Source: Bacteroidales bacterium
Lineage (GTDB): Bacteria > Bacteroidota > Bacteroidia > Bacteroidales > P3
DNA length: 43,733 nucleotides
Assembly: GCA_017429685.1 (NCBI GenBank)
Contig: JAFROL010000028.1
Span: forward strand, 1 to 43,733
Direction: 5' to 3'
Shown here: piece by piece, positions 42,411 through 43,625 of the stretch
Position numbering within the stretch: the first letter of the stretch is position 1
Layout: each line of letters begins with the position of its first letter
The notes under the pieces: model-generated
Seen by the model: only the letters and a program-made list of their open reading frames with translations
What the model was told of the DNA's origin: nothing
The model's database searches: none
Translations under genes and position numbers: made by a program

Positions 42411-42429
42411 AGTCAGTCTTAATTTTTTG

Positions 42430-42437
42430 CAAAAGTA
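42430..42437 (-). promoter_or_regulatory. -7 box of the DUF4160-DUF2442 pair
   Basis: TACTTTTG on the minus strand fits TAnnTTTG and lies 19 nt before the DUF4160 ATG at 42410. Confidence 0.6.
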
Positions 42438-42551
42438 CAAAATATTTTTGAATCGTAAAAAATGAATGTTCAATTTTTAGATTATCAATGTTTTTTTGAT
42501 AAAATAACATTTAGTACGAATAATTTATTTTACCATTTTGTCATTTTTTGC

Positions 42552-42559
42552 TATTTTTG
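42552..42559 (+). promoter_or_regulatory. Rightward -7 box upstream of the structured region
   Basis: TATTTTTG matches TAnnTTTG and points toward the 42675-42822 structure, about 390 nt before the next ORF. It would give either a stand-alone RNA or an unusually long leader. Confidence 0.5.
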
Positions 42560-42674
42560 CAAAGTCATTCATCGAAAAGCTCTCGGTTGATTTTTGTTTT
42601 TAACAAATGATTCTGTGAGAATTAGATAGTGACAGAACATAATAGACAAGACGTTGAACGGCGTTTTATCTGCG

Positions 42675-42822
42675 GTCGCTGAAACTCGCAATTTCTTTAT
42701 CCACCGCACGGTAAGGCAAAGTCAACGTCCACATTTGCTACAAATTATATGTTGTAAGCTTATAGCGTGGGCGTTTGACGTTGCTTATCTTCGGTGGATG
42801 GGCAATGCGAGGCCTCAGCGAC
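42675..42822 (+). ncRNA. Candidate structured RNA (or MITE): 148-nt nested stem
   Basis: Successive complementary pairs nest around one apex: GTCGCTGA (42675-42682) with TCAGCGAC (42815-42822); CTCGCA (42685-42690) with TGCGAG (42806-42811); ATCCACCG (42699-42706) with CGGTGGAT (42792-42799); AGTCAACGTC (42720-42729) with GACGTTGCT (42777-42785, one bulge); CCAC (42729-42732) with GTGG (42767-42770); GCTACAA (42737-42743) with TTGTAAGC (42752-42759, one bulge). Internal loops are asymmetric, which fits an evolved RNA better than a simple terminator. I do not recognise a known RNA family. Strand is assigned from the upstream rightward promoter box. A non-autonomous mobile element is the main alternative. 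Confidence 0.5.
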
Positions 42823-42947
42823 GGGATAGGCAAAGTTGAATCCCGCGCTTCTTTCTATTTTGTTTTTGAATTATCGGATATTATTGTGGCACTTCGGGAA
42901 TCGTGTCAAACAAACAGTTGTGCCCGACACGAATAAGGGTTTTATGT

Positions 42948-43625
42948 ATGGTAAATGCAAGACACTTCCTATTGATGCTATTAATGTTTCCGTTATTCTT
43001 GTCGGCGCAGGAAATCCGCTTGGCAGAAAAACTCACAATGCAAATGCCGGAAGGCATTACTCCGATTGAGAATTCGTATCAATTCAGTAAATCTCGCGGT
43101 TATTGTGACAATTATATATATACAGTATACATAATACCTTTAGAAACTGAAATGCCCGACGGCAATAAAGGCGCTATTGCTGATCGCTACAAAAATCTAA
43201 AAACGATGGATACTATATTTGTTAATAAGAAAACAACGCAACTCTTGGAAACTCAAACCGAAAACTTCTATCAGTGGACCAAAGATTATGTAAAAAAGAA
43301 ATATGAAACTACAGACAGTTCCAAATGGAAATATGTATACACTTTTGCATCGCATACGAATACGGAGATTGTGTTGGTTGTGGTAGAAACCACGCACGAT
43401 GATAATTACGCAACTATTGATTCAATACTTTCTACATTCGAATACAAACCAGGTTTTTGGGGTAAGTTTGGCCACGGTTGGCAGTGTGCAGAATTATGGT
43501 GGTTTTTATTAATAGTAATACTCATTTTTTCGGGATTTATTGTTTTTGTAGATCATAATGGAACAATATGGCCTTTTATTTATATTATTTGTTCATTGCT
43601 GTCCACTAAAAATTTATACCGATAA
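42948..43625 (+). CDS. Unrecognised secreted or membrane protein
   Basis: A 225-residue protein from ATG 42948 (MVNARHFLL), with a signal peptide ending near LFLSAQ at about residue 21. The exported part (about 22-175) is alpha/beta with IPLETEMPDG, a lysine-rich stretch around 60-110 and KWKYVYTFASHTNTEIVLVVVET. A strong membrane helix follows at about 184-206 (LWWFLLIVILIFSGFIVFV), then a second hydrophobic segment near the C-terminus. I do not recognise a family. The AT-rich composition and lack of neighbours of known function suggest an accessory gene. Confidence 0.75.
   Translation: MVNARHFLLMLLMFPLFLSAQEIRLAEKLTMQMPEGITPIENSYQFSKSRGYCDNYIYTVYIIPLETEMPDGNKGAIADRYKNLKTMDTIFVNKKTTQLLETQTENFYQWTKDYVKKKYETTDSSKWKYVYTFASHTNTEIVLVVVETTHDDNYATIDSILSTFEYKPGFWGKFGHGWQCAELWWFLLIVILIFSGFIVFVDHNGTIWPFIYIICSLLSTKNLYR

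Follow-up and report, generated by a model that had tools for sequence, protein, structure and literature searches.

The DNA window analysed here, the whole 43,733-nt stretch from a Bacteroidales bacterium, carries a member of a new class of cis-regulatory RNA, and this classification is well supported. The conserved element comprises 223 nt (42638-42860; plus strand, as for all features described below) and was matched by two covariance models with 208.9 bits (R1) and 166.8 bits (R2). Judged from its sequence, the element probably acts in cis, as a leader RNA forming a multi-strand transcription attenuator of the gene behind it. The family, which in Bacteroides-like bacteria lies between a promoter and often a gene for a surface or secreted protein, seems to decide whether each downstream gene is read.

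A previous sequence-only reading of this DNA had described nested inverted arms over 148 nt in a GC-richer island of an AT-rich gap, with a rightward -7 box upstream and no credible ORF in the region, and all of these features were recovered. The hairpin (42675-42822) folds with -67.4 kcal/mol, against a shuffled mean of -37.2 (sd 3.6, z -8.4), and none of 200 shuffles was as good; the fold of the reverse strand gave a z of -7.3. Its GC content is 48.0% versus 37.6% for the 474-bp gap (42474-42947), and no ORF of at least 100 aa overlaps it. The -7 promoter box, TATTTTTG, was read in the sequence at 42552-42559, and its position suggests a transcription start near 42565. A TTTG usually lies at the -33 spacing, and none was seen there by eye upstream of this box. 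The hairpin had also been judged unlike tmRNA, 6S RNA and riboswitch families, in agreement with the searches performed here. Rfam 15 gave no match over the whole window, none at E up to 10 in 42420-42960 (6S and 6S-flavo included) and none for the homologous locus L155. In 15 homologous loci there were five sub-threshold matches at E up to 1, none of them on the element, so that gathering and relaxed thresholds alike gave nothing there; the tRNA/tmRNA search returned none. The functional unit is larger than the hairpin, as the model match extends over 42638-42860, with the promoter box before it and a partner loop behind it (42888-42907).

The proposed search of Bacteroidales genomes, with a covariance model, revealed diverged homologues. 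In the DNA search of the same genome, the other copies were 87%, then 73% identical, and the rest were weaker. Within the genus, at least 37 of 58 other genomes had matches, and among 40 genomes of other families, with few candidates scored per genome, no genome had one. A pattern scan of named genomes yielded at least 116 stretches. The 80 matches listed are from uncultured Bacteroidales, Bacteroidia and Bacteroidetes, bacterium F082 and Candidatus Limimorpha caballi, many of them from rumen or hindgut. The same exact genus pattern submitted against viral contigs and two elements submitted by blastn against plasmids had no match; these searches were narrow, and mobile carriers are possible.

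The covariance model R1 comprises 31 elements, and the alignment A1 holds 31 of 34 loci, without L005 (the same place as L004), L026 (no recognisable 5' end) and L010 (insertion). L010 lies at a contig end, and its element carries insertions, relative to the others, ahead of P6 and in the loop of H0. R1 matched 45 of 59 genus genomes, own included, and at least 49 of 295 Bacteroidales genomes, own included; in the match counts for the genus, as distinct from these genome counts, one place was in a few cases counted again on the reverse strand. The second model, R2, comprises 34 diverse loci (29 of 40 diverse loci plus five from the genus), the omitted ones being mainly loci with a long apical loop. 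It matched 16 of 41 genomes in a Bacteroidales sample (15 of 40 if the own genome is set aside), 5 of 40 sampled genomes of the class Bacteroidia (own, one other Bacteroidales and three others) and, at shallow depth, at least 36 of 395 genomes. In a draw from the phylum, at least 11 of 296 genomes had a match, all within the class; every genome of listed kinship in this draw belonged to the class, so that the draw speaks for the class. The counts 37/58, 49/295, 36/395 and 11/296 are lower bounds, with nearly every genome scored for at most five to seven candidates.

In the window's own genome, R2 found 13 distinct places, 12 of which were checked by eye (the weakest, C18, excepted). A deeper R2 search of 10 genomes picked for having matches found 31 distinct places in one genome, 13 in a family relative and 1-8 in the others. 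When the 70- and 85-locus sets were searched, each locus was matched once and nothing else was matched at E up to 1e-5. The elements fall into two size classes, one of about 220-310 nt, to which the window's element belongs, and one of about 160-200 nt. By eye, both share the hairpin H0, P2, the complementary loops L1 and L2, P4, and P6 with a GCGTGGGC-like 3' strand, as well as the arm t2 (TCCCACGC-like) and usually a T-run. Of 125 homologous elements, 103 have a TAnnTTTG box no more than 110 nt upstream, compared with 101 of 2006 random windows.

Covariation supports the RNA. The sequence-only reading had expected compensatory stem changes of an RNA, and in the alignment A3 (34 elements) both sides changed in 42 of 51 pairs, with 95.1% of cells pairing and a score of 0.661, against 0.240 for shuffled and at most 0.127 for slid alignments. 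The alignment A6 (85 elements) had compensatory changes in 47 of 51 pairs and 91.3% of cells pairing, and scored 0.680, whereas shuffled alignments scored 0.188 and slid ones at most 0.103. Among 3859 cells, G.U occurs 484 times and A.C 108 times. This excess identifies the RNA of the plus strand as the functional form, since neither a DNA palindrome nor the opposite strand would yield such a G.U bias.

Since A3 and A6 were both fitted to the model, we performed an alignment-free own-versus-swapped test, in which the duplex energy of a segment with its own partner was compared with that obtained with the partners of other elements (2000 permutations, relatedness ignored). The segments were excised by model alignment from 82 of 85 A6 rows (up to 200 nt, short) and 43 of 70 A5 rows (over 200 nt, long); z values are given below as short/long.

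The element begins with the hairpin H0 (AAGACG..CGTTTT, 42648-42667), which has compensatory changes in all four modelled pairs in both A3 and A6 and whose 3' side overlaps segment a. Segment a (strand 1, 42664-42675) pairs with segment b (strand 2, 42704-42727), and b may pair with either a or c (a-b, z -12.3/-10.2; b-c, -12.2/-7.3). Segment c (strand 3, 42777-42794) may pair with b or with segment d (strand 4, 42820-42835; c-d, -12.7/-6.7). The element also has the helices P2 (42674-42682 with 42815-42822; z -41/-24) and P4 (42700-42706 with 42792-42798; -36/-24). The H1 region (42681-42695) exposes the loop L1, CTCGCA (42685-42690), which is complementary to the loop L2, TGCGAG (42806-42811), of the H2 region (42800-42816), and this loop-loop complementarity is own-specific (-25/-11). 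The local stems are weak in part (H1, -5.5/-6.3; H2, -6.6/-1.4). The P6 5' strand, P6a (42725-42738), pairs with P6b, GCGTGGGCG (42765-42773), with a z of -8.9/-4.8; in A6, 97.3% of the P6 cells are paired and both sides changed in four of six pairs.

Strand 5 is the GC-rich arm t2, GAATCCCGCGC (42838-42848), for which there are three possible partners: t1 (mainly in long forms), P6b, and a loop past the U-tract. The arm t1 (CGGGAT, 42822-42827) is the start of d and would form the 5' arm of a local terminator (t1-t2, z -3.8/-7.3), whereas P6b with t2 forms the helix P7 (-11.1/-5.2), in which t2 rivals P6a. At one P7 column pair, chosen after the scan, T stands opposite in 8/8 A rows, with 71 GC, 8 AU, 4 GU and 1 GA. 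The U-rich tract read directly after t2 (42849-42867) resembles an intrinsic terminator, at which we infer termination; T-runs follow t2 by eye in the homologues listed. Past this tract lies strand 6, the m2 hairpin (42888-42907), whose loop CGGGAATC (42895-42902) is complementary to t2. The downstream gene (42948-43625) encodes 225 aa from its ATG (in the ORF list it starts from the GTG at 42903), has a signal-like N-terminus by our own signal rule and had no Pfam match at E 1e-4.

For a-b, b-c, c-d, P6 and P7, none of 2000 permutations reached the observed value in either size class, and an earlier run with 40 elements agreed, with one mildly positive control (P2a-Bout, 61 of 2000). The null controls a-c (-0.3/2.1), b-d (0.3/1.3), P6a-t2 (-0.4/-0.6) and P2a-P4b (2.1/0.8) behaved as such; the control H1a-H2b (-6.4/-1.7) is unclean, its bases being shared with P2. 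The outer rod helix a-d was weak (-2.0/-2.3; 260 of 2000 in the 40-element run). Complementarity merely passed along the chain would favour a-d too, and a-d is weak. Given this weak result in the own-versus-swapped test, a-d, the outer helix given by RNAalifold, was dropped as a candidate antiterminator.

Several covarying helices are mutually exclusive, namely a-b versus b-c, b-c versus c-d, P6 versus P7, and the alternative partners of t2, as is characteristic of an attenuator. Likewise characteristic is a GC-rich helix leading into a U-tract ahead of the gene, and this is present too: t2 precedes a T-run by eye, and t1-t2 and P7 both covary. The local t1-t2 hairpin was considered as the only terminator and rejected; the mean t1-t2 duplex is -4.1 in short and -11.5 in long forms, and the short forms mostly lack t1 by eye, which led to the recognition of P7. 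In the window, the predicted duplex energies are -12.2 for a-b, -15.4 for b-c, -16.2 for c-d, -5.8 for a-d, -11.9 for P6, -12.7 for P7, -10.2 for d-t2 and -9.8 for t2-m2.

The contact between t2 and m2 was own-specific in the genus set (8.09 own versus 6.63 swapped, 0 of 1000 permutations, n=121) and in the diverse set (7.26 versus 6.23, 0 of 1000, n=40). In the final sets, z was 6.8 (n=82) and 7.8 (n=43), and the reversed-t2 control gave 0.1 and 1.5. Within single genomes, the observed value was reached by 0 of 5000 permutations (23 of 31 copies) and 1 of 5000 (13 of 13 copies), and within the window's genome by 64 of 5000 (11 of 13 copies). The window's own t2-m2 duplex has one mismatch between runs of five and three pairs, and m2 is absent or unconvincing in various leaders, for example in front of the genus's BspA-type LRR genes. 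A further conserved leader motif, TTGYRCCCGACACGRAYAAGGG-like, stands just ahead of the start codon in several members of the genus, namely in the window (42911-42941) and at L011, L012, L014, L018, L024 and L155. In the window, the GACACG of this motif could pair with the 3' side of the m2 hairpin, to which it is complementary, and so add a step of translation control.

The genes behind the elements include LRR surface proteins, lipoproteins, proteases and some defence-like genes. By a crude signal-peptide rule of our own, 126 of 206 downstream ORFs had a signal-like N-terminus, versus 126 of 607 background ORFs from the same loci (odds ratio 6.0, Fisher p 7e-26, relatedness ignored), distributed as 38 of 75 in the short, 24 of 42 in the long and 64 of 89 in the genus set. 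The 206 ORFs were obtained from 249 entries (some loci twice; 241 with an ORF) thinned by protein-start similarity, and 144 of them were submitted to Pfam and PADLOC. The best 25 of 120 Pfam families included LRR_5 (10), BACON (3), BACON_2 (3), Trypsin_2 (2), response regulator (2) and many singles. Among the best 25 of 105 PADLOC families were ZorA2, a type IIG enzyme, a type II methyltransferase, LmuA (2) and PD-T4-6. To judge from the sequences, the defence-like PADLOC matches (ZorA, restriction, methyltransferase) may belong to loci such as L265, L235 and L245.

Some further genes deserve mention. At L020, L021, L025, L031, L038 and L080, in several genomes, the element is immediately followed by a peptide family, small proteins that carry a Y.TPMVEVL.ARVERGF-like motif. 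Short Cys-rich proteins with a SRRDFFKKAAKSALP-like N-terminus, possibly modified or exported peptides, lie behind L008, L079 and L086. At L030, the element abuts the apparent inside of a BspA-type LRR gene and no ORF with a start codon follows, as if recombination had swapped leaders.

The sequence-only reading had offered a new structured RNA, a long leader regulating the gene at 42948, or a MITE. The covariation, the upstream box and the own-specific pairing with the downstream leader support both of the first two, which prove to be one and the same thing. A MITE or another mobile inverted repeat would account for scattered, near-palindromic elements in many copies, such as the 13 places in the own genome and the 31 in another Bacteroidales genome. 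However, the paired changes are compensatory, G.U is preferred over A.C, the element is flanked by a promoter box and a gene, and the narrow viral-contig and plasmid searches were empty. Identity between copies is also low, and together with the covariation this divergence rules the MITE out for practical purposes. A DNA-level recombination site acting as a folded single strand, like the attC of integrons, would fit a structure conserved above sequence and the variety of genes behind the elements. Such a site is very unlikely, given the G.U bias, the promoter box upstream and the T-run after the element; moreover, attC sites lie behind cassettes in arrays, whereas the elements seen here sit upstream of genes.

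The remaining two alternatives accept a functional RNA. Independent small RNAs that act in trans, each transcribed from its own promoter to its own terminator and close to genes only incidentally, would likewise show the box found in 103 of 125 elements, a terminator-like end and a stable fold, but they would hardly pair specifically with their own downstream leader, even among paralogues of one genome, or be followed so often by signal-like genes; we consider them very unlikely. The same cis switch might instead act after transcription, with t2-m2 controlling translation start or mRNA decay and the U-tract serving as a linker or pause. This reading draws on the conservation of t2-m2 pairing despite the position of m2 past the U-tract, which means that m2 can act only in read-through RNA, and on the long rod being by far the more stable fold. 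It is nevertheless unlikely, as the listed homologues mostly keep a T-run directly after the GC-rich arm and both t1-t2 and P7 covary.

Fold energies bear on how the attenuator might switch. Without t2, the rod has a mean of -56.7 (short) and -89.1 kcal/mol (long), compared with -41.8 and -57.3 for two separate domains, so that the rod is ahead by about 15 (short) to 32 kcal/mol (long) on average; only nested helices were counted and the stretches compared are not identical. The two-domain form was lower than the rod in 0 of 82 short and 0 of 43 long elements. Consequently, the two-domain form must be a co-transcriptional or stabilised state, and switching would be kinetic or helped.

In the proposed attenuator, the 5' domain (a-b) would form first. 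If a-b persisted, c would pair with d and t2 would take P6b, and the resulting P7, a GC-rich helix at the U-tract, would stop transcription (OFF). If b took c, the long rod would form and bury P6b, transcription would go on (ON), and t2 would be parked on m2 in the mRNA. A ligand, a protein or a transcription-rate signal acting on the 5' domain would presumably set the choice. The sign of the switch is our presumption too: t1-t2 also fits the rod in long forms, the window's kind, so that the rod may itself terminate and the sign could reverse, and since short forms mostly lack t1 by eye, the sign may differ between subtypes. More tentatively, and at slightly less than even odds, the family could be a six-strand kinetic switch of Bacteroidia, with 2:3 and 5:6 paired in the ON state and 1:2, 3:4 and the P6b-t2 terminator in the OFF state. 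It would sense a global signal and control how strongly much of the accessory gene pool for surface, secreted and defence functions is expressed, each copy being insulated from its paralogues by its own t2-loop pairing.

Several known systems resemble this family. The trp-type attenuators use the alternative pairings 1:2, 2:3 and 3:4, and likewise have successive exclusive strands that feed a terminator-like helix before a U-tract. Unlike them, the family has a sixth strand past the U-tract, complementary loops and a rod of great length. No conserved short leader ORF of the T-box or trp type was seen by eye among the homologues listed. Terminator-type riboswitches share the structured leader, with strands common to the upstream fold and the terminator-like helix, whereas the family, with as many as 31 matches in one genome, stands before a large variety of unrelated genes, many of them for surface or secreted proteins. 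In Rfam 15 the element had no match to a known riboswitch class or to the 6S and 6S-flavo models. 6S RNA is hairpin-shaped, and 6S RNA including 6S-flavo is likewise a long interrupted hairpin in Bacteroidetes; unlike 6S, the family is multi-copy, lies before genes, has alternative terminator-like pairing and had no Rfam match at E up to 10. The 6S-flavo family is RF01685 (PMC2864571). Among the candidate RNAs of the human microbiome, two named ones (132 and 80 bp) are palindromes that come mostly or entirely from Bacteroidetes and are predicted to include terminators (PMC8040213); they are shorter than the family and are set apart here by their description, with partial overlap possible. Structured 5' elements that are conserved, and independent RNAs, both lacking Rfam matches, have also been reported (PMC9723704) and were compared by description. 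The parts of these three papers and of PMC7366714 that were consulted contain no description of the family, although an earlier unlabelled listing is possible.

The family is thus apparently unnamed. The leader attenuator as a device is known; to our knowledge, the family, its many copies and the strand past the U-tract are new. We know of few cis-regulatory RNAs for surface proteins of Bacteroidia, and a class with up to 31 matches per genome would be a hidden control layer in rumen and gut bacteria. Its strands and alternative helices are now mapped well enough for direct testing.
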